Source of the DNA: Gammaproteobacteria bacterium
GTDB taxonomy: Bacteria > Pseudomonadota > Gammaproteobacteria > Arenicellales > Poriferihabitantaceae
Reading direction: 5' to 3'
Assembly (NCBI GenBank): GCA_012103395.1
Contig: WLWV01000010.1
Span: forward strand, 1-33,003
DNA: 33,003 bases
Positions 4,348-32,550 of this stretch are shown piece after piece; position 1 is the stretch's first letter; the number at the start of each line of letters is the position of its first letter. The notes under the pieces are model-generated. The model was given only the letters and a program-made list of their open reading frames with translations. It made no database searches and was not told the DNA's origin. A program made the position numbers and the translations under genes.

Positions 4348-5781
4348 TTAGTCCGAAGCTCGTGATTTTCCAAAATAATGGTCAAAGAAAAAAACGGCTC
4401 CGGCAATGACGAGAACTAGGTGTAACGGCCAGGCAGCGATGGCGTATCGCATCAGTCCCGCTTGTAACGACGCTGTTAGGAGAAAATAACTTTGGACCAT
4501 CACGGCGACGAGGAAAAGACTCAAGCCAGCGCTGGGTAAGGGGCGAAACCGAGTTAGGTACTGTTTAAGGCCAAGAAAAATAATAAGGACATTTGCGATT
4601 GCAGCGATGGCCAAAAAGAGTTTGATGCCGATAAAGGTCTTGGGGTTTTGAGGTTCGGGCCGGTATGGAATGATTTCGTCCGGGAGATCGGGTTTCACTA
4701 GTTCAAGCTTCCGATTGTATTCCCTGATCATATTTTCTGACTGTAGCTCGGCCAACGCCCATAACCCATAAAAGTTAATCATCACGTCTTCCAGATACCC
4801 CGTGGGATCCTGTTTGATAATGGAATAAGCTAGCACGTTCAGCGCCTGTCCCTGACCGGATTCTGGGATATTGGATTTCTGCAATACCTCGGGCATTTTT
4901 CTGAATCGTAAATAGTCGTAGATGTTTAGAGAAAAGACAAATTTCTCGTTGATGCTGTGCATGTGTTGAGTTCTCGCCTTTCTTGATTGTTCCGTTAAGG
5001 CTAACCAGTGTTTTCCGGCGGTTGGGTAGGGGGTTTTCTGTGCATCAAACTCGGAAAATACAAGTTTTCCAGTAAGTTGATTCCCCATGAATGAACTCGG
5101 AATCCAACTTTGATGAACGCTGAAACGATACAGTGTACCCGCGGATAAGACGAGAGTAATTCCCAAGAAGATCAGCGATGTGCGCTTGAAAAAGGCATTT
5201 TTTGACAAAAGAAATTGCACCATCAGAATCACGGGTATGCAAACCAATGCCCAGGACACTGGCTTAATCAGAATGAGCCAAGCGACGAGGCAACCGATGA
5301 GGAAAGGACGGGCTTTATTGCTGGTTTCATCGGGTTTTAGTATCAGCCCGGTAAGTAGCATTAATGAGCTGAAAAAAAGAGATTCGGTGATGAGCGAAAA
5401 GCAATACTGGACAACGGCGGGGTTTGCACCTGTTCCTACTAACAGGGCTACCCCTGATACAAAGGAGGAGGTGAATCGCTTCAGACTGATTGACAAATAG
5501 AGTAAAGTCGAAAAAAACAATGCGAGTTGCAACAAAACAACCAGTGACCAATCCAGTTGGAAAACTTGAGTAAGTTGAAGGAAAAAAGGATATCCCGCTC
5601 CCCGGTACGGGTCGAACCGTAGGTAGCTTGTGGTGTCGGGAACCCGAAGAGGGTAATCAGAGGGGAAAAACACCCATAAGATGAGTAGCGCAATTGCTAC
5701 AAGGCCAAGTACATAGTTGCTAATTGTATTATTAGAAAATGCTTGGTCAACATTTCGTGGATGATGAATAAAGGGAGTCAT
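4348..5781 (-). CDS. Multi-pass membrane protein, GT-C/ArnT-PMT-like glycosyltransferase
   Basis: 477-aa ORF with about 10 hydrophobic segments; early VPDTTSYLRFDPYRGAGYPFFL is typical of GT-C first-loop acidic motifs. Confidence 0.7.
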   Translation of the reverse strand: MTPFIHHPRNVDQAFSNNTISNYVLGLVAIALLILWVFFPSDYPLRVPDTTSYLRFDPYRGAGYPFFLQLTQVFQLDWSLVVLLQLALFFSTLLYLSISLKRFTSSFVSGVALLVGTGANPAVVQYCFSLITESLFFSSLMLLTGLILKPDETSNKARPFLIGCLVAWLILIKPVSWALVCIPVILMVQFLLSKNAFFKRTSLIFLGITLVLSAGTLYRFSVHQSWIPSSFMGNQLTGKLVFSEFDAQKTPYPTAGKHWLALTEQSRKARTQHMHSINEKFVFSLNIYDYLRFRKMPEVLQKSNIPESGQGQALNVLAYSIIKQDPTGYLEDVMINFYGLWALAELQSENMIREYNRKLELVKPDLPDEIIPYRPEPQNPKTFIGIKLFLAIAAIANVLIIFLGLKQYLTRFRPLPSAGLSLFLVAVMVQSYFLLTASLQAGLMRYAIAAWPLHLVLVIAGAVFFFDHYFGKSRASD

Positions 5782-6597: not shown

Positions 6598-8562
6598 GTG
6601 AATAATCAAACGGTTAATGTGGTTCTGTTCTCTGGAGGGAGAGGGTCATCGGTACTCACCAAGCAACTACTACACCATAGCAGTGTAAATCTAAGTCTAA
6701 TTATCAATGGCTATGATGACGGCCTGTCTACTGGCGAGGTACGGCGGTTTTTAGGAGATTGTCTTGGACCTTCTGATTTTCGTAAAAATGCCAGCCGTGT
6801 CGCGATCGAAAAACGCAGCTGTGAACAGGGGCTGATCGAGCTGCTGGATTTACGTTTGCCTGTGACGGTGAATGATGAACTGGTTGCTGCGATATTAGGA
6901 TTGTTAACTGCAAAGCCCGTTGAAAACGCCACTGTTTTTTTTGATTCCTTTTCACGACTACACGATTCATTGCGAAATGAATCAAAAAACCTCTTGGTAG
7001 AACGCATGCAGGCATTTTGTGATGAACTGGAAAACCAGCAAGAGGGTTTCGATTTTTCCGACTGTAGTATCGGCAACCTAGTTTTTGCCGGTAGCTTTTT
7101 GGTGAGCCAGCGAAATTTTAATCAGGGTGTCGATGATTATGATCGTTTACTTGGGTTAGAAGCGGGTTTGATTCTGAATGTCACGAAAGGGGAAAATGCG
7201 TTTTTAGTCGCGACCAATGAAAACGGTGAGTATCTGGAAAGTGAGGCGGACATTGTTGACGCGGGGAAACGGAATCATATCAAAGATATTTTTTTACTGG
7301 ATGCACCGATCCAGAAAGAAAGTCTGGAAGCGTTACCGGTCAATCAGCTTAACAAATTGCTTAAACAGCGCGAAGCAGATATTCATCTTAACGAACAGGC
7401 TCAGGATGCGATATCGAGAGCGGATCTGATTATCTATGCGCCAGGGACGCAACACTCTAGCCTCTTTCCATCTTATTTGACGCCAGGGCTTGGGCATGAC
7501 ATTGCGAAAAACACTCAAGCATTGAAGTTATTGGTAACGAACATCGAGGAGGACGCAGAGATTCCTGATTTCAATGCTGTTGAAATTATTAATAAGGCGG
7601 TTTACTACCTGCGCGAAAAGAACGCCAGAAGCTATCCGGTTTCATCATTACTTACTCACTACCTGGTTAACTTGCCGGATACCAAAACCAGAGATGATGA
7701 GAAAAACTATATCCCTTTGGGGAATATGGAGCAGATTGAGGACCCCCGTCTGATAAGAATAGGTAACTATGAAGATCAAGAAACCGGGAATCATGATCCT
7801 GAGAAAGTATTGTCCCCATTCGTCAATGAAATTCTAGCAAAGAAAGCTGCGTTGTCGGTCGCTGTTTTATTAACTGAAAATAGCTCTGTTAACAAAACAG
7901 TGCAGACGGTTTTGGAGATGGCTCGCTCCAAGCTGCAATTCCCCTACGACGTGACGATATATTACCAAGGTGTGGAAATCGATTATTTCCAAGAAGTTGA
8001 CTTGCCATTCAAGACTTCCCATGTGGAGAATAAAGGCAATGAATTGATGTTAAGGGCAGTGCTTGAGAATAGCCACGATTACGTGTGCTTGATGGAGTGT
8101 TCGGGGATGTATCATGGGTACGATGTGATTTCTCTGATTTCTAACCTGAATCAACCTAATGTTGATGCTGTTTGGGGAAGTCGTCGCTTATCAGCGTCAG
8201 ATATGAAAGCGTCCTATAAATTTCGCTACCGCCATCGCGTGTCACTCGGTGCTGTAAGCTATATTGGAAGCTACATGCTTAGTTTGAGCTATTTGTCGCT
8301 CTATGGACGGTATGTCTCAGACACCCTGTCTGGACTACGTGTTGTTAAAAGTCACTTTCTTCGAAAAAACCAATCCAATTTTGAACGGGATAATTTCAAC
8401 CAGTATCTGCTAAGTGATCTACTTGATAGCAAAGGCAGGGTTTTCGAGGTGCCAGTTGACTTCCTCCCTATGTCTCCGAACAAGGTTAGGCGTACCAGTA
8501 TTTTACAGGGCCTGAATGCTTTTTGGGTGATTATGACCCAACGCATGAAAAGCCTACTTTGA
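6598..8562 (+). CDS. Fusion protein: N-terminal YvcK/CofD-like domain (about aa 1-395) plus C-terminal GT2-like domain (about aa 405-654)
   Basis: VVLFSGGRGSSVLTKQLL, DDGLSTGEVRRFLGDCLGPSDFRKN, GNLVFAGSFL, ADLIIYAPGTQHSSLFPSYLTPGLGHDIAKN match the YvcK/CofD layout; C-term DAVWGSRRL...SDTLSGLRVVKSHFLRK...GRVFEVPVDFLPM matches DPM1-type GT2. GTG start. Confidence 0.8.
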   Translation: MNNQTVNVVLFSGGRGSSVLTKQLLHHSSVNLSLIINGYDDGLSTGEVRRFLGDCLGPSDFRKNASRVAIEKRSCEQGLIELLDLRLPVTVNDELVAAILGLLTAKPVENATVFFDSFSRLHDSLRNESKNLLVERMQAFCDELENQQEGFDFSDCSIGNLVFAGSFLVSQRNFNQGVDDYDRLLGLEAGLILNVTKGENAFLVATNENGEYLESEADIVDAGKRNHIKDIFLLDAPIQKESLEALPVNQLNKLLKQREADIHLNEQAQDAISRADLIIYAPGTQHSSLFPSYLTPGLGHDIAKNTQALKLLVTNIEEDAEIPDFNAVEIINKAVYYLREKNARSYPVSSLLTHYLVNLPDTKTRDDEKNYIPLGNMEQIEDPRLIRIGNYEDQETGNHDPEKVLSPFVNEILAKKAALSVAVLLTENSSVNKTVQTVLEMARSKLQFPYDVTIYYQGVEIDYFQEVDLPFKTSHVENKGNELMLRAVLENSHDYVCLMECSGMYHGYDVISLISNLNQPNVDAVWGSRRLSASDMKASYKFRYRHRVSLGAVSYIGSYMLSLSYLSLYGRYVSDTLSGLRVVKSHFLRKNQSNFERDNFNQYLLSDLLDSKGRVFEVPVDFLPMSPNKVRRTSILQGLNAFWVIMTQRMKSLL

Positions 8563-8594: not shown

Positions 8595-9251
8595 ATGGCC
8601 GATCATCTGGGGGGTATCAGCGGAGTGGTGTTCGACATGGATGGAGTGCTTGTCGATACATCTCCTTGCCATGAGCAGGCCTATAATCGGCTTATGACGA
8701 AACTGAAACTTCCCGCTGTGGAGTATGAACAGTTGGCTGGGCGCAGCACTAAAGACGTTGTTGATCAGCTTTGTGGCCACTTGTCTTCGCAAGCACGCCA
8801 ACAGTGTGTGAGTTATAAACAAACCGAAGCTCTGAAGCTGTTACGAACTGCGGATATTGTATTCGCCGATACCGTGTGTTCCATCGAAAAATTGCATAGA
8901 GCTGGATTCAAGCTGGCATTGGCAACTAGCGCCTCAAAAGCCAGCGCCGGTCTGGTTCTTGATCGGCTTGGCGTGAGCCATTTGTTTGAGGCCGTGATAA
9001 CCGCAGATCACGTCAAGAAAGCGAAGCCGGATCCAGAGATCTTTTGCCGAGCGATAAAAGCCTTGGGTCTAGCGCCATCGGCATCCCTAATTATTGAGGA
9101 CAGTGTCGCAGGTGTTAGAAGTGGTCTGGCCGCTGGTGCAAGGGTGGTCAATGTGCGCAATCGAATCAGTCACATTGAACATCCTAGTTTTTCTGGATTT
9201 TATGGTGATCTCACGGAAGTAACAGGATTACTAATGGGTCGAACTTCATGA
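8595..9251 (+). CDS. HAD superfamily subfamily IA hydrolase / beta-phosphoglucomutase-like protein
   Basis: FDMDGVLVDT (motif I), LATSAS (II), KKAKPDPEIF (III), IIEDSVAGVRSG (IV). Confidence 0.9.
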   Translation: MADHLGGISGVVFDMDGVLVDTSPCHEQAYNRLMTKLKLPAVEYEQLAGRSTKDVVDQLCGHLSSQARQQCVSYKQTEALKLLRTADIVFADTVCSIEKLHRAGFKLALATSASKASAGLVLDRLGVSHLFEAVITADHVKKAKPDPEIFCRAIKALGLAPSASLIIEDSVAGVRSGLAAGARVVNVRNRISHIEHPSFSGFYGDLTEVTGLLMGRTS

Positions 9252-10063
9252 ATGTAATGATTATACCCGCCGCGGGCAGAGGCACGCGATTGGACTATTC
9301 GGGTCCTAAACTAATGTTTCCACTGGGTGGTAAGCCACTGATTAGTTATTTATTGGTACGATATCAACCGTATGTTGATCACTTTGTGATTGTGATCAAT
9401 CCCAAAGACGAACAGGTGGTAGAGAATTACCTAATATCGACTGGATACAGTTATGAGTTTGCCTATCAAGCAGAAGCGACTGGAATGCTGGATGCGATTC
9501 TCGCTCCCCTTCCACAACTAAAAAATAGGCTCGGTGATGCAAAGCCGGACCAGTTGTGGATAAGTTGGTGCGATCAAATTGGTATTACGCATCAAACTGC
9601 TTTGGCTATGCACCAGTTGTTTGATGACACTGACGAGCCTTGTCTGATTTTCCCCACCATCGAAAAACCACAACCTTATATCCACATGCAACGGGATAAG
9701 TGGGGTGAGATTATTCATGTGATGCAACGAAGAGAAGGTGACGACATGCCCGAGATCGGAGAGAACGACTGTGGGCTATTCGGATTGAGTGCTACCACCT
9801 ATTTTGACCTGCTGCCTCAATTTTCTGATTGGCTCGATACAGTATCGTCAGTGGACAATTCAAATACCGAATCGGGGGTTGGAGCGACTACTCACGAGCG
9901 CAATTTTTTGCCTTTTATTTCATGGATGCGGGGTAAAGGAACGGTATCAACTTATCGCGCTGTGGATAGTACGGAGTCCATTGGTGTCAATACCGTTGAA
10001 GATGCTGAGCAGTTGATCTCGGCTAGTGGTGGCGTATCACAAACAGCGACAAGTAATCGATGA
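9248..10063 (+). CDS. Nucleotidyltransferase (GlmU/MobA-like NTP_transferase fold)
   Basis: N-terminal MIIPAAGRGTRLDYSGPKLMFPLGGKPLI, internal YQAEATGMLDAI and NTVEDAE; ATGA overlap with the preceding gene. Confidence 0.88.
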   Translation: MNVMIIPAAGRGTRLDYSGPKLMFPLGGKPLISYLLVRYQPYVDHFVIVINPKDEQVVENYLISTGYSYEFAYQAEATGMLDAILAPLPQLKNRLGDAKPDQLWISWCDQIGITHQTALAMHQLFDDTDEPCLIFPTIEKPQPYIHMQRDKWGEIIHVMQRREGDDMPEIGENDCGLFGLSATTYFDLLPQFSDWLDTVSSVDNSNTESGVGATTHERNFLPFISWMRGKGTVSTYRAVDSTESIGVNTVEDAEQLISASGGVSQTATSNR

Positions 10064-10090: not shown

Positions 10091-10828
10091 ATGCATAATA
10101 AAACACAAACACTGTCCATTGTAATCCCAGCTTACAATGAAGCGAATTTCATTGGCGTCTTGTTGGAAAAAATAGCGGAAGTCAATCTGGCTTCTTTGGG
10201 ATTGGAAAAAGAAATTATTGTAATCAACGATTGCTCTGCGGACCAAACAGCAGAGATTGTAAGGAGGTTTGATAATGTAATTCTGCTGGAGCATACCGTA
10301 AACAGCGGCAAAGGCATGGCAGTAAGAACTGGGTTGGACAAAGCAACAGGAGATTTTCTAATTATTCAGGATGCTGATTTGGAGTATGACCCTGAAGACT
10401 ATATCCCCATGCTGGAACCGCTCCTGAGCAACAAAGCGGACGTAATTTACGGCAGCAGATACATGAAACATCCAGAGGCTGGAGTGATAAAAAACCTACT
10501 AACGGGAAAGCACCCTGAGCAGTCTTGGGTTGCGTATCTTGGGGGTCAGAGTTTGAGTTTTGTGTCATTACTTTTCACTGGTCGGTTTTTGTCGGACACA
10601 GTAACGGCTTACAAACTCTTTAAATCGCCCATCATTAAAAACCTAGCACTTGAAACCACGGGCTTTGAACTTGATCACGAAATATCCGCAAAAGTTCTTA
10701 GCAGTGGTCACCGTATAATGGAAGTTCCCATTTCCTATTTGCCTCGTACCGTTGCGGAAGGGAAGAAAATTGGCCTGAAAGACTGGTTTTGTGCAATTAG
10801 GACATTCTTCAGATATCGAAATGGTTAG
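10091..10828 (+). CDS. GT2 family glycosyltransferase, dolichyl/polyprenyl-phosphate sugar synthase-like
   Basis: LSIVIPAYNEANFIGVLL, IIVINDCSADQT, NSGKGMAVRTGLDKATGDFLIIQDADLEYDPED, YGSRYM. Confidence 0.92.
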   Translation: MHNKTQTLSIVIPAYNEANFIGVLLEKIAEVNLASLGLEKEIIVINDCSADQTAEIVRRFDNVILLEHTVNSGKGMAVRTGLDKATGDFLIIQDADLEYDPEDYIPMLEPLLSNKADVIYGSRYMKHPEAGVIKNLLTGKHPEQSWVAYLGGQSLSFVSLLFTGRFLSDTVTAYKLFKSPIIKNLALETTGFELDHEISAKVLSSGHRIMEVPISYLPRTVAEGKKIGLKDWFCAIRTFFRYRNG

Positions 10829-10840
10829 TCAAACACTAGT

Positions 10841-12286
10841 ATGGCCGTCGGTACAATGCTAAAAAATATGAAGTGGTTGTTTGTAACTTTGGCTGTGATG
10901 CTGGTTACGCGGTTAGGGATTTGGTTGGCCTATGGTTTTAATGAAGCCCTATTTCTTCAACCAGACAGTCATGATTATGTGTACTTAGGCAAACAGCTTT
11001 TCGAGGAAGGGCTGTTTCCAAGTTTCTCGCGAACTCCGGTGTATCCCTTTTTTCTGGGCGTTTTGGATAGCGTTTTGGGATTTGATGTCAAAGCAATCAT
11101 ACTGGTCCAAATCGCTATTTCTTTGTTGACGGCCTGTTTTGCCTGGCGAATACTCAACCAGTTTAGCCCCGATTCAGTGAAAGGTGCAGCGAATGATTAT
11201 CATCAGCATGGGTATATCGCCTTTGCGTTGATTTTCGGGCTGGATTTCGTCAGCGCTCAGGGCGCCAACTATCTGCTATCAGAAACGATTTTTACTTTCC
11301 TGATCGTGGTCGCTGCAAACTTGGCCATGGATATTAAATACCAGCGGACTGCGGGGTGGTCAAAAGGCATTTTATGCGGGGTGGTGCTTGGTTTAGCCAC
11401 ACTGTGTAGACCGATAGCTATTTTCTTTCCTTTGGTGGTCATGGCCTGGGGGATCTTGGGTGGGTTGCCTGCTAATAATGGCAAACCCCGGAGGTGGGTC
11501 GCTTTCGACAGGATAGGCGTGTTCGGTTTGGTGTTTGTTTTATCAATGTCATTTGCTGCGGTTTGGATGATGAGGAATCAGGACAAGACAGGGGAGGCTT
11601 TCTTGACCACAATTTCATCCATTAACCTATACGAGTATCGGGCAGCGTGGAATATTGCCTATCGAGATGGTCGATCGTTTGATGATGTGCAAAAGGAATT
11701 CAGAGAGAGGAAACGTGCGATTCAACGCGCCGAGAACCTAAATGTTGGTGAAATGGCAAAACGGATGGGTAGTGAGGGCTTGCTATTGATCAAAGAAACA
11801 CCGGTGGAAACGATGGTTCAGGGAGGTTTGGGTTTTATTCGATTGTACTTTGGTGTTTTTGGTTCAGCGATTAATGATCTCTTTCTAGTGTTGGGTTTCT
11901 CGAATGAAAGTAAGGGTGGGTGGCTTGTAAAGATATTCGTGTTGTTCCACGTTACGTTGGTGTATGTTGGTATTATGGGCTTATTCATTAGCAGGCTCCG
12001 CAACAGTGCCAAAAGAACCGGGCAGATGGCTAGGGAAAACGCCATCCTGATTTTTTGTGGATTGATTGTGGGTTACTTCACGCTGTTATCCGTTGGGATC
12101 GAGGCGTATTCACGATTCCGAATTCCCATTATGCCGCTGCTTGGTATTCTGTCAGCGCTAGGCTGGTCCTATTTGTTGATGTCGGCGTGTCGATTCCGAG
12201 CGGATAGTTTTTGTCAATTGGGTATTGAGAGGTCAGGTTCAGATCAGTCAAGTTCAGAGCAACTAGGCTCAAGGACGAATGACTGA
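10841..12286 (+). CDS. Multi-pass membrane protein, GT-C/PMT-like glycosyltransferase
   Basis: PDSHDYVYLGKQLFEEGLFPSFSRTPVYPFFLG is typical of ArnT/PMT-like proteins; many TM segments. Confidence 0.78.
   Translation: MAVGTMLKNMKWLFVTLAVMLVTRLGIWLAYGFNEALFLQPDSHDYVYLGKQLFEEGLFPSFSRTPVYPFFLGVLDSVLGFDVKAIILVQIAISLLTACFAWRILNQFSPDSVKGAANDYHQHGYIAFALIFGLDFVSAQGANYLLSETIFTFLIVVAANLAMDIKYQRTAGWSKGILCGVVLGLATLCRPIAIFFPLVVMAWGILGGLPANNGKPRRWVAFDRIGVFGLVFVLSMSFAAVWMMRNQDKTGEAFLTTISSINLYEYRAAWNIAYRDGRSFDDVQKEFRERKRAIQRAENLNVGEMAKRMGSEGLLLIKETPVETMVQGGLGFIRLYFGVFGSAINDLFLVLGFSNESKGGWLVKIFVLFHVTLVYVGIMGLFISRLRNSAKRTGQMARENAILIFCGLIVGYFTLLSVGIEAYSRFRIPIMPLLGILSALGWSYLLMSACRFRADSFCQLGIERSGSDQSSSEQLGSRTND
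12231..12275 (+). repeat. Imperfect 15-bp tandem repeat, about 3 units, at the 3' end of the GT-C gene
   Basis: GGTCAGGTTCAGATC / AGTCAAGTTCAGAGC / AACTAGGCTCAAGGA, encoding the low-complexity tail RSGSDQSSSEQLGSR. Confidence 0.5.
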
Positions 12287-14444: not shown

Positions 14445-15631
14445 AACTAGCTCTGTTTATCCCAAGCCTCGAGGTCGGTGGTGCAGAGCGCCAAATGATC
14501 CTACTGGCGAAGTCCCTGATGGAAAATGGGCACGACGTCTCTCTTTGGTGTCTGCGGGAGACAGGGGCTTTTGTTGCTGAAACCAAGGATTATGGTATCC
14601 CCGTTTTCAATGTGGGCAAAGGTGGCCGATATGATTTGCTTGGTGCGGCAATTCGCTTGAGAAGAATTTACCAGCAAGCGGCGCCGGATGTGATTGTTTC
14701 CTGCTTGCCTTCAGCCAATCTGTATGCATTATTCGTTCGACTGTTGAGGCCCAAAATTATCGGTAAACAGCCTCGATTGATATGGGGGCTGGCGTCTGCG
14801 AAGTTGCCTGTCGGAGAATACGGTTGGTGGGCAAAAATTAGCTATTGGGTGCAAGCCAAAAGCGCACGATGGGTGGACAAGGTGGTGGTGAATTCGGTGG
14901 CAGGCTGGGAGTCAGCGCGGCAGGAAGGGTATCCGGTGAACAAATTGCAGGTTATTCACAACGGCGTCGATATGCAACGGTTTATGGCAAACTCACAGGA
15001 CGGAGAAAAGTGGCGAAAAGAGATGAATATCCCAACTGAGGCCGCTCTGGTTGGTATGGCTGGTCGCTTGGACCCGGCAAAAAACTACGAAGTGTTTTTA
15101 CAAGCATGTGAAATCGTTGCCGTCAATGATGACAGGGTCTGGTTTGTTATCGTCGGTGGTGGCGACAATGAATATGCAACGGAACTAAAAGCCAAAATCG
15201 ACAATCACCCTTTGTATGGACATCGCCTTCGTTACAAATCCAATGAAACGAATATGCCGGCAATGTACAGTGCATTGAATTTAATGACTCTGACCTCAAA
15301 ATCCGAAGGGCTGCCAAATACTGTGGTCGAGGCTATGGCATGCGAAACTCCCTGTGTGGTGACCGACGTTGGTGATTGCCGGTTGGCGGTAGATCGTTTC
15401 GGTGTTGTTTGTGAGGTGGGCGATGCACAGGGGATCGCAGAATCATGGTTATCAATAATTTCTTCCAAAAAATCAAATGAAGCGGCCAACAGCGGTGCCA
15501 GAAAAAACAAAATCTGGGATTTTTCTGGTTTAAGAAAATACATGGATCAGACATTCAGTTTGGAAAAAATGACCAAGCAGTTTGAGGACGCCTGCACTGA
15601 AGTACAGCAACAAGGAAAACGCGGTGGATAG
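14441..15631 (+). CDS. GT4 family glycosyltransferase
   Basis: FIPSLEVGGAERQMILLAKSL, GRLDPAKNYEVFLQA, TSKSEGLPNTVVEAMACETPCV; ATGA overlap with the upstream gene. Confidence 0.93.
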   Translation: MKLALFIPSLEVGGAERQMILLAKSLMENGHDVSLWCLRETGAFVAETKDYGIPVFNVGKGGRYDLLGAAIRLRRIYQQAAPDVIVSCLPSANLYALFVRLLRPKIIGKQPRLIWGLASAKLPVGEYGWWAKISYWVQAKSARWVDKVVVNSVAGWESARQEGYPVNKLQVIHNGVDMQRFMANSQDGEKWRKEMNIPTEAALVGMAGRLDPAKNYEVFLQACEIVAVNDDRVWFVIVGGGDNEYATELKAKIDNHPLYGHRLRYKSNETNMPAMYSALNLMTLTSKSEGLPNTVVEAMACETPCVVTDVGDCRLAVDRFGVVCEVGDAQGIAESWLSIISSKKSNEAANSGARKNKIWDFSGLRKYMDQTFSLEKMTKQFEDACTEVQQQGKRGG

Positions 15632-16934
15632 CTTAGCGGGTTGGCTACTTGCTATGGCAAGCTTTGTCGTTTTTTGGGTAGTACTGCCTAAGTCGAATCG
15701 AACACCAATCATTGTGCTAAGTGGCATTTTCGTTCTTCTCGCCCACCATCTTCTTTCGTTTGTAAACATTGCCTATGGGCCCCTGATTTTCGCTAAATCT
15801 GATGCCTGGGGGTTTCACTTGTTTGCCGCCAAGTTTGCGGGTGATGCTGAACAACTGGAATGGGCCATTGGTACGCCCATGTATAAGTCCCTACTGCTAA
15901 TTTTGTATGATTGGTTTGGAAAATCGCTGTGGCTTGGGCAAAGCTTTTCAATTCTGTGTTTCAGCATTTCCGCAGGGCTTTTGATTCGTGTACTTCGCCT
16001 TTTGGAAGTTAACAATATGGTAATCCTCGCTGGGGCAATATTGATGTATGGTTTAACTCCGAGTGGACTGATCTATGGTTCGATTACTCTTCGGGAGCCT
16101 TGGATGACACTGTTCTTTATGTTGGGTAGTTTTCTGGCTATTCGAGGCATACAAAATCAGGCAATGATGGATATATTGATTGCCTGTTGTTCTTGGATGA
16201 TCATGGGGTTGTTCCACCAGGTGATGATGATCTATGGGTTGGTTGGCGCAGCTGGACTGATACTTTTGCATGGTGTTATGACATGGCGCCAACAAACTGT
16301 TTCTGGGGCCAATGGTTGTTCCGATGTTTTTTTAAGTCGTATCTCATTTCTACTGTTGGTTATTTTTCTATTTACATTCGGATTAGCAATTTTTTTCCTA
16401 TTACCTTCAACGGGTGGAGACGACTATTTCGCCATGATTTTTGACTCTATTCCACAATCAGTGGCTTTGTATCGAGAGGCAGGGGAGTCGAGCAATCCCA
16501 CTACAGGCTATAGGGCATCGTTCTCTTTTGTTGATTGGATAAGCATGTTGTTATCGTTAACGCGTTCTTATTTCTATTACATGGGTTGGCCGGTAACCGG
16601 CAATTACCAACTAATGAGTACATCGGTGCTCATGGTAGGAGGGATATTACGTATGTTGGGCATCGTGTCCGTAATTGTAATATGGTGCAGCAGGAAGGGG
16701 AGCGAAGAGGAACATTACCGATATCTGCTTCTATTGCTAGTGATCTATGTCAGCCTGACTTTTCTCTGGAACGTTGGTACTACTAATCATGGTCAAGCGT
16801 TGCGCCATCATATGATGACTGACTGGATATTGTTATGTCCTATCGCCATGTTTTGTCAACGAACATGGTCCCAGAGAAAAACACGATCCATTGCAAGTGT
16901 AAAGGGGCCAAACTCATCCCAGACCATCGAATAA
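15624..16934 (+). CDS. Multi-pass membrane protein, candidate O-antigen/EPS polymerase (Wzy-like)
   Basis: Hydrophobic throughout; YGLTPSGLIYGSITLREPWMTLFFMLGSFLAIRG resembles polysaccharide polymerase-type proteins. ORF opens at 15582, but the GTG at 15624 fits the junction with the upstream gene better. Confidence 0.6.
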   Translation: MDSLAGWLLAMASFVVFWVVLPKSNRTPIIVLSGIFVLLAHHLLSFVNIAYGPLIFAKSDAWGFHLFAAKFAGDAEQLEWAIGTPMYKSLLLILYDWFGKSLWLGQSFSILCFSISAGLLIRVLRLLEVNNMVILAGAILMYGLTPSGLIYGSITLREPWMTLFFMLGSFLAIRGIQNQAMMDILIACCSWMIMGLFHQVMMIYGLVGAAGLILLHGVMTWRQQTVSGANGCSDVFLSRISFLLLVIFLFTFGLAIFFLLPSTGGDDYFAMIFDSIPQSVALYREAGESSNPTTGYRASFSFVDWISMLLSLTRSYFYYMGWPVTGNYQLMSTSVLMVGGILRMLGIVSVIVIWCSRKGSEEEHYRYLLLLLVIYVSLTFLWNVGTTNHGQALRHHMMTDWILLCPIAMFCQRTWSQRKTRSIASVKGPNSSQTIE

Positions 16935-31472: not shown

Positions 31473-31491
31473 CTAATTGCTTCCTCTCAAA

Positions 31492-32550
31492 ATGATTGAA
31501 TTTGAACAGCTGTTGAATGCCCAAAAAATAGGGCAGATACCCGACCCCTATTTGATTGCGGAAGCTGGAGTGAATCATGAAGGTTCAATGGATTTGGCAA
31601 AACAACTTATCGATGAAGCACAAGAAGGTGGCGCTAATGCCATTAAGTTTCAATCCTACAAAGCACATCTAATTGCTTCCAAAAATAGCCCCGCCTATTG
31701 GGATACTTCTAAAGAAAAGGCGAAAAATCAATATGAACTCTTTAAGAGATATGATGCTTTTTGGAAACCAGAATATGAGGAACTGAAACGACATTGTGAG
31801 CAAGTAGGTATTGAATTTATGTCTACCCCTTTTGATCTTGAGTCAGCCAACTTTTTGGATGAATTGGTTTCAGTTCACAAAATATCTTCTTCCGATATCA
31901 CGAACCAACCCTTATTAGAAAGTATCGGAAGTAAAAAAAAGCCAATTCTGCTTTCTACAGGAGCAGCAACAATATCCGAAATATCGCGTGCAGCAAGCTT
32001 CCTTGAGAAGTACGGTGCACCGGTATGTTTGATGCATTGTATCTTGAACTATCCAACACCAGACAAAAATGCAAATCTCGGTATGATCGTTGATCTTAAA
32101 AACAGGTTCCCTAATACGCTAATTGGTTACTCTGATCACACACTTCCTGGGGATATGGAAAATTTGCTATTAGCCAGTATGCTTGGCGCAAGCGTCCTTG
32201 AAAAACATTTTAGCCATGATAAAACCCTGCCAGGGAATGACCATTACCATGCAATGGACATGACGGATCTTAAACACTTCAAAGCTAGAGTAAGGCGAGC
32301 TCAAGAAATCATTGGATCTTATGAGAAAACACCGCTTAGCGAAGAAGGAGAATCTAGGAAACAGGCTCGACGAAGCCTAGTTTCAGCTCATCCCATCGCC
32401 ATAGGGGAGACTATTACTAAGGAATCACTAATATCAAAACGACCCGCTCATGGTATTTCACCATTCGAAATAGACAAGATAGCTGGGACTAAGGCGAAGA
32501 TTGCGATAGAGGAAGACACGATAATTAGTTGGGATATGCTGTCAGTCTAG
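31492..32550 (+). CDS. neuB: N-acetylneuraminate synthase (NeuB) family nonulosonic acid synthase with C-terminal SAF domain
   Basis: LIAEAGVNHEGSMDLAKQLIDEAQEGGANAIKFQSYK, EFMSTPFDLESANFL, KISSSDITNQPLLE, LSTGAATISEI, C-term SLVSAHPIAIGETITKESLISKRPAHGISP. ORF opens at 31477. Confidence 0.93.
   Translation: MIEFEQLLNAQKIGQIPDPYLIAEAGVNHEGSMDLAKQLIDEAQEGGANAIKFQSYKAHLIASKNSPAYWDTSKEKAKNQYELFKRYDAFWKPEYEELKRHCEQVGIEFMSTPFDLESANFLDELVSVHKISSSDITNQPLLESIGSKKKPILLSTGAATISEISRAASFLEKYGAPVCLMHCILNYPTPDKNANLGMIVDLKNRFPNTLIGYSDHTLPGDMENLLLASMLGASVLEKHFSHDKTLPGNDHYHAMDMTDLKHFKARVRRAQEIIGSYEKTPLSEEGESRKQARRSLVSAHPIAIGETITKESLISKRPAHGISPFEIDKIAGTKAKIAIEEDTIISWDMLSV

Follow-up and report, generated by a model that had tools for sequence, protein, structure and literature searches.

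A YvcK/CofD-fold domain fused to a GT2-like domain and its conserved cassette of nucleotidyltransferase and glycosyltransferase genes

What might a protein do that joins a CofD/YvcK-type domain to a domain of the glycosyltransferase family 2 (GT2) type? The question is raised by a single long reading frame in a 33,003 bp stretch of a gammaproteobacterial contig (the whole of this stretch is called the window here). In the CofD/YvcK superfamily the F420 branch is well characterized, and the role of the YvcK/GlmR branch is still disputed. The literature searched, which excluded most subscription papers and all preprints, yielded no paper on the fusion family, its architecture or the gene cassette described below, and a plasmid search gave no match. 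The protein and its two parts are as follows.

6598–8562 (+), CofD/YvcK-like plus GT2-like fusion protein, 654 aa, GTG start
6619–7671 (+), CofD/YvcK-fold domain, aa 8–358 (from Pfam PF01933, Foldseek matches to YvcK/CofD and a residue census)
7852–8547 (+), GT2 half of the DPM1/ArnC/GtrB type, aa about 419–650, with a degenerate donor-binding N-terminus

A preliminary description of this DNA had read the 654-aa frame as a YvcK/CofD-type N-terminal half followed by a DPM1-type GT2 C-terminal half, and had proposed structure prediction of each half as a check. Both folds are recovered, and the two-domain fusion is confirmed. In the AlphaFold2 model (mean pLDDT 90.7, pTM 0.78) the N-terminal half matches YvcK (2hzb, TM 0.80 by target length) and F420 CofD (3c3d, TM 0.58) in Foldseek searches, and the Pfam CofD family PF01933 covers aa 8–358 with an E-value of 3.7e-20, exceeding the curated cut-off. 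The C-terminal half finds ArnC, dolichol-phosphate mannose synthase (DPMS) and GtrB at E-values of 1e-8 to 1e-5. It has no match in a Pfam scan and a weak NCBIfam match to the AglJ GT2 profile (E = 7e-5), and it is 22% identical (E = 3.7e-10) to an intact GT2 encoded three genes downstream, at 10091–10828. A profile built on it reaches DPMS 5mlz with an E-value of 4.5e-10; two intact fusion relatives and the intact GT2 of the window are among the sequences in this profile, and the match therefore does not stand for the decayed clade alone. Relatives that span the full length of the fusion, about 25–82% identical to it, are present across many phyla, so it is neither a chance reading frame nor an assembly join.

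The CofD half carries the motifs GGRG, NGYDDGxSTG, GPSDFRKN, DCSxGN and PGTQHSSLFPSY. YvcK outscores F420 CofD by far as a match to it, and with the YvcK/GlmR proteins (UPF0052; PDB 2hzb, 2o2z, 2ppv) it shares the fold, Asp40, an equivalent of N217 and the motifs DDG..STG, P.D.R, SxGN and PG[ST]..SxxP. Nevertheless, the NCBIfam YvcK model TIGR01826 scores only 63.7 bits on the fusion, under its curated cut-off of 196. The nearest named NCBIfam model by score is TIGR04357, for the GAK-system CofD-like proteins, but its 91.9 bits also lie under the cut-off (340), and GAK proteins form a separate clade and are unfused in the five members examined. In a maximum-likelihood tree of CofD domains, 41 family members form one group (support 98/99), and F420 CofD (its own group, 100/100), GAK and YbhK-type relatives fall outside it; in this tree the YvcK branch is sampled by YbhK-type relatives, the YvcK proteins of known structure having been left out. 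The genome of the window (93% complete) has no second PF01933 match. The genetic setting differs as well: YvcK is the second gene of the three-gene operon yvcJ-yvcK-yvcL, whereas the neighbors here are HAD, nucleotidyltransferase and glycosyltransferase genes.

The survey of the fusion architecture across genomes that had been suggested earlier shows it to be conserved in many phyla. In the order to which the window belongs, 9 of 109 genomes have full-length or split relatives, and a scan of genome contigs with peptide seeds found 79 loci. Phyla with the fusion include, by record title, Acidobacteriota, Pseudomonadota, Myxococcota, Verrucomicrobiota, Cyanobacteriota/Melainabacteria, Armatimonadota, Binatota, Bdellovibrionota and Nitrospinota. 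Actinomycetota (Streptosporangiaceae, Actinomadura) encode the CofD part by itself, as a protein of about 345 aa with no GT2 half; a DPM1-like gene adjoins it there too. Many of the records behind these labels are metagenome bins, so that single labels may be wrong. One further locus (L092, G131:C41:18151-18975) has a 591-aa open frame with a HAD hydrolase-like start and then a YvcK-like domain, which is a HAD-YvcK fusion of another kind or possibly just an extended frame.

Two short segments of the GT2 half bear on whether it could still be a catalyst.

8095–8112 (+), ECSGMY (aa 500–505), where the aligned intact companion GT2 has the DxD motif DADLEY (also from the motif census)
8176–8184 (+), GSR (aa 527–529), invariant, with Arg529 equivalent to Arg117 of Pyrococcus furiosus DPMS (aligned with 5mlz)

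The absence of a DDGS motif had already been remarked upon and an altered domain suspected; both points are borne out, and the DxD motif is missing as well. In the motif census DxD is missing from all 58 fused GT2 halves, against 64 of 67 companion GT2 genes encoded separately that have it. The fused halves fall into three types at this position, E-x-S-G-x-Y (n = 32), P[SAG]DxEY (n = 11) and [TS]GDGxY (n = 15), and the window clade has E-x-S-G-M-Y. In the P. furiosus enzyme, whose motif is DADLQH, Asp91 and Gln93 bind the metal, Asp89 touches the sugar, and the acceptor phosphate is held by Arg117, Arg131 and Ser135 (PMC5526996). The two metal ligands correspond to Ser and Met in the window clade, and its nucleotide-binding N-terminus is unrecognizable. 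The GSR arginine is retained in all fusions aligned; no equivalents of Arg131 and Ser135 could be assigned in the alignment of the C-terminal half with 5mlz. Thus the C-terminal half has the fold, the GSR arginine and the SDTLSG and EVPV regions in common with DPMS (5mlz), ArnC (8vxh) and GtrB (5ekp), but in the window clade it lacks DxD and the donor-binding motifs, and it carries an additional N-terminal CofD domain.

Some relatives (L044, L063, L068 and L107–L116) have an intact-looking GT2 half, which argues that the version in the window clade is a decayed GT2 domain, as its motif losses indicate. Halves of the P[SAG]DxEY type retain VPxxNE and VDGGS, and the two that were scanned have Pfam GT2 matches (E = 8e-27 and 7e-23). 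These same relatives lend something to the idea that the fusion is a bifunctional active enzyme, in which the GT2 half transfers sugar through a remodeled site and a second, separate step falls to the CofD half, as does the residual activity kept by the D89A and D91A forms of the P. furiosus enzyme (PMC5526996). Given the Ser and Met at the metal-ligand positions, the unrecognizable N-terminus and the fact that the cassette already encodes an intact DPM1-like GT2, such a bifunctional enzyme is quite unlikely. Relatives with an intact-looking GT2 half (L044, L063, L068, L132 and L134) often adjoin a radical SAM gene, and the best NCBIfam model for the two such genes scanned is the Sden_1168 P-methyltransferase, under its cut-off; several of these loci also carry a class I methyltransferase. 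This link was seen only next to relatives of the intact-looking type and not in the window, and it plays no part in the mechanism proposed below.

The conservation of some of these motifs is partly built in, since the contig scan was seeded with the peptides GPSDFRKN and [LM][FM]E[SC]SGMY. However, members recruited by HMM (TIGR04357 or PF01933; L098, L099 and L107–L116) retain GPSD[FVL]RKN and PGTQ[HN]SSL[FYL]PSY, and L098 and L099 retain ESSGMY, so motif conservation is not only an effect of the seeds.

Immediately downstream of the fusion lie four genes on the same strand.

8595–9251 (+), HAD sugar-phosphatase or beta-phosphoglucomutase-like enzyme (sugar phosphatases and beta-phosphoglucomutase are its nearest profile matches)
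9248–10063 (+), GlmU-like sugar nucleotidyltransferase (Asp109 and Asn248 invariant; phylogenetic profile)
10091–10828 (+), intact DPM1/AglJ-like GT2 with DADLEY (profiles, alignment and phylogenetic profile)
10841–12286 (+), polytopic membrane protein, tentatively a possible GT-C glycosyltransferase using a lipid-linked sugar

The last of these has about nine predicted transmembrane helices and matches PMT_2 weakly (E = 0.014). Along its whole length the profile of the nucleotidyltransferase matches GlmU (E = 1e-24), covering the full N-terminal uridylyltransferase domain, and the metal-site Asp and Asn are invariant, but the protein lacks the acetyltransferase domain of GlmU. By analogy with the CofC/CofD pair a CofC-like enzyme had been expected here; that assignment was rejected because the profile points to GlmU.

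These genes travel with the fusion, and the real unit is a conserved cassette and not the fusion alone. Scanning with HMMs of the cassette genes places a nucleotidyltransferase gene near CofD in 76 of the 79 loci, the three misses reaching contig ends; the HAD gene is missing from one group of acidobacterial loci. Near seed-independent loci the nucleotidyltransferase and the DPM1-like gene were found in 7 of 7 cases and HAD in 6 of 7, at distances of up to about 5 kb. Of the order's 109 genomes, exactly the nine with the fusion have the nucleotidyltransferase (E ≤ 1e-15) and the remaining 100 all lack a match; the DPM1-like gene (E ≤ 1e-50) is present in eight of the nine. By genome, Fisher's exact test gives p = 2e-13 for the nucleotidyltransferase and 2e-11 for the DPM1-like gene, values that overstate independence since the genomes are related and the genes sit on shared contigs; by genus, p for the nucleotidyltransferase against the fusion is 6e-6, to which the same reservation about kinship and shared contigs applies. 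A single polypeptide combines the nucleotidyltransferase, CofD and GT2 domains in Bacteriovorax (L044) and in Nitrospina (L063). An apparent DPM1-CofD-GT2 fusion in L049 was rejected, as its DPM1-like match sits in a different, overlapping reading frame. The window's nearest relative (L012, G071:C213) has an in-frame TAG in its nucleotidyltransferase match and a DPM1-like gene split over two frames, which could be assembly error or decay.

Within the order, every match shares its contig with the fusion, which would fit transfer as a unit, and the four genes might merely co-travel in polysaccharide islands without acting together. The association, however, persists across many phyla while gene order varies, and in two phyla it has become an in-frame three-domain fusion, so mere hitchhiking is very improbable. 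Chemistry of the F420 kind, in which the protein would transfer 2-phospholactate or a phosphoglycerate-type group for an F420-like cofactor, is disfavored still more strongly and is barely credible. The family does share the superfamily fold with F420 CofD/FbiA (PDB 3c3d, 6uvx) and has similar aspartate motifs, and in that pathway too a nucleotidyltransferase acts upstream; but the clade is distant from F420 CofD, the nucleotidyltransferase neighbor is GlmU-like and not CofC, the setting is a polysaccharide locus, and no sign of an F420 context was seen within the window.

That the window is a surface-polysaccharide locus is plain from its many GT4 and GT2 genes, a nucleotide-sugar dehydrogenase, an epimerase, a Bac_transf phosphoglycosyltransferase (21343) and an ABC exporter (28639). 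A NeuB family gene at its edge (31477–32550) suggests that the surface polysaccharide contains an acid of the sialic or legionaminic type. Three other membrane proteins have no Pfam match: one at 4348–5781 (−), which adjoins the fusion in five gammaproteobacterial loci and is modeled by AlphaFold at low confidence (pLDDT 50), and two polytopic ones at 137–2656 and 15582–16934 with about 13 and 8 predicted transmembrane helices, the latter of which could be the polymerase or flippase of the locus.

Two aspartates of the CofD half are candidates for an active-site role.

6715–6717 (+), Asp40, putative metal ligand and, by motif, putative equivalent of FbiA Asp45, invariant in 58 relatives
6775–6777 (+), Asp60 of GPSDFRKN, putative metal ligand and, by motif, putative equivalent of FbiA Asp57, invariant in 58 relatives

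In FbiA the metal is bound by D45 and D57 (PMC7253369); the tentative correspondence with D40 and D60 was drawn from the motifs, without superposition. The 58-row alignment of relatives shows no variation at six residues, D40, D60, R62, N160, P291 and N315, and D41 is mostly retained outside the actinobacteria. In YvcK, T13, N217, Y264 and R300 (Bacillus halodurans numbering) have been examined for UDP-GlcNAc binding, which their alteration is reported to abolish (PMC5482804). Only N217 is retained in the CofD half (as N315): T13 is replaced by Arg15, the R300 site is variable, and no equivalent of Y264 is seen in the alignment. Listeria GlmR makes UDP-GlcNAc, an activity that requires D40, D41 and N198 (PMC10128056), and by our reading of the alignment the N198 position is Ser292 in the fusion.

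These residues bear on whether the CofD half plays a GlmR/YvcK-like part, as a UDP-sugar sensor or an accessory uridylyltransferase, tuning the neighboring GlmU-like enzyme or adding to its output, with the GT2 half tethering it to a membrane enzyme. YvcK is the best fold match, far ahead of F420 CofD; of the residues used by Listeria GlmR, D40 is invariant and D41 mostly present outside actinobacteria (PMC10128056); and the universal partner is itself GlmU-like. Yet three of the four YvcK residues and the Listeria asparagine are not retained, and a dedicated nucleotidyltransferase is already there, in the same chain in two phyla. A GlmR-like role is therefore somewhat unlikely, and it is ranked under phosphoryl transfer because most of the YvcK UDP-sugar-binding residues are gone.

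The reading tentatively favored, at somewhat less than an even chance, is that the fusion is one enzyme of a cassette that activates a sugar and, in the making of an envelope polysaccharide, moves it toward a carrier of the polyprenyl-phosphate type, the CofD half performing an NMP-releasing phosphoryl-sugar transfer and the GT2 half holding the acceptor. The HAD protein would supply a sugar phosphate, and the GlmU-like enzyme, to judge by its family and intact motifs, would convert sugar-1-phosphate to an NDP-sugar. The CofD half would bind this NDP-sugar with a divalent metal at Asp40 and Asp60 and pass the phosphoryl-sugar to an acceptor with release of NMP, as in CofD. The GT2 half of the window clade, having lost its motifs, has probably ceased to bind a donor or turn one over; it may bind polyprenyl phosphate, and could have been kept for docking of polyprenyl phosphate or a polyprenyl-phosphate-sugar, or for pairing with the intact DPM1-like partner. 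The arguments for this CofD-type transfer are the two folds, the invariant putative metal aspartates, the loss of DxD with retention of the GSR arginine, and a nucleotidyltransferase that co-occurs with the fusion, adjoins it and is fused to it in two phyla. Against it, the stand-alone CofD of actinobacteria indicates that the GT2 half is dispensable in principle, and YvcK has been reported to be a UDP-sugar-binding protein and accessory uridyltransferase, not a phosphotransferase (PMC5482804, PMC10128056), which weighs against phosphoryl transfer since YvcK is a nearer relative than F420 CofD. The unassigned counterparts of DPMS Arg131 and Ser135 and the motif-based placing of the FbiA metal site count on the same side. 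The preliminary description had supposed that a nucleotide-activated group is coupled to a polyprenyl-phosphate acceptor; the GlmU-like and DPM1-like neighbors fit that idea, and the coupling itself stays an inference. What that description did not contain is the conserved cassette, the loss of most YvcK binding residues, the GlmU-like rather than CofC-like partner, and the relatives with an intact GT2 half.

A more specific form of the CofD-type transfer, which is unlikely, would make the protein a phosphoglycosyltransferase of a new class. Its CofD half would take sugar-1-phosphate from an NDP-sugar and attach it either to polyprenyl phosphate bound by the decayed GT2 half or to the sugar of a polyprenyl-phosphate-sugar, the second route giving a phosphodiester-decorated lipid-linked sugar. 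If true, this class would lie outside the two known membrane phosphoglycosyltransferase folds.

The family is a further deep clade of the CofD/YvcK superfamily, apparently tied to a nucleotidyltransferase and to enzymes that handle polyprenyl-phosphate sugars, and its genetic context lets the ancestral chemistry of the fold, phosphoryl transfer from an NDP compound, be tested. Resolving it would assign a function to many proteins whose only name now comes from an F420 or YvcK model. It would also provide a case of a glycosyltransferase domain that has given up catalysis and may serve instead to bind an acceptor. The cassette points to an undescribed step in cell-surface sugar synthesis.
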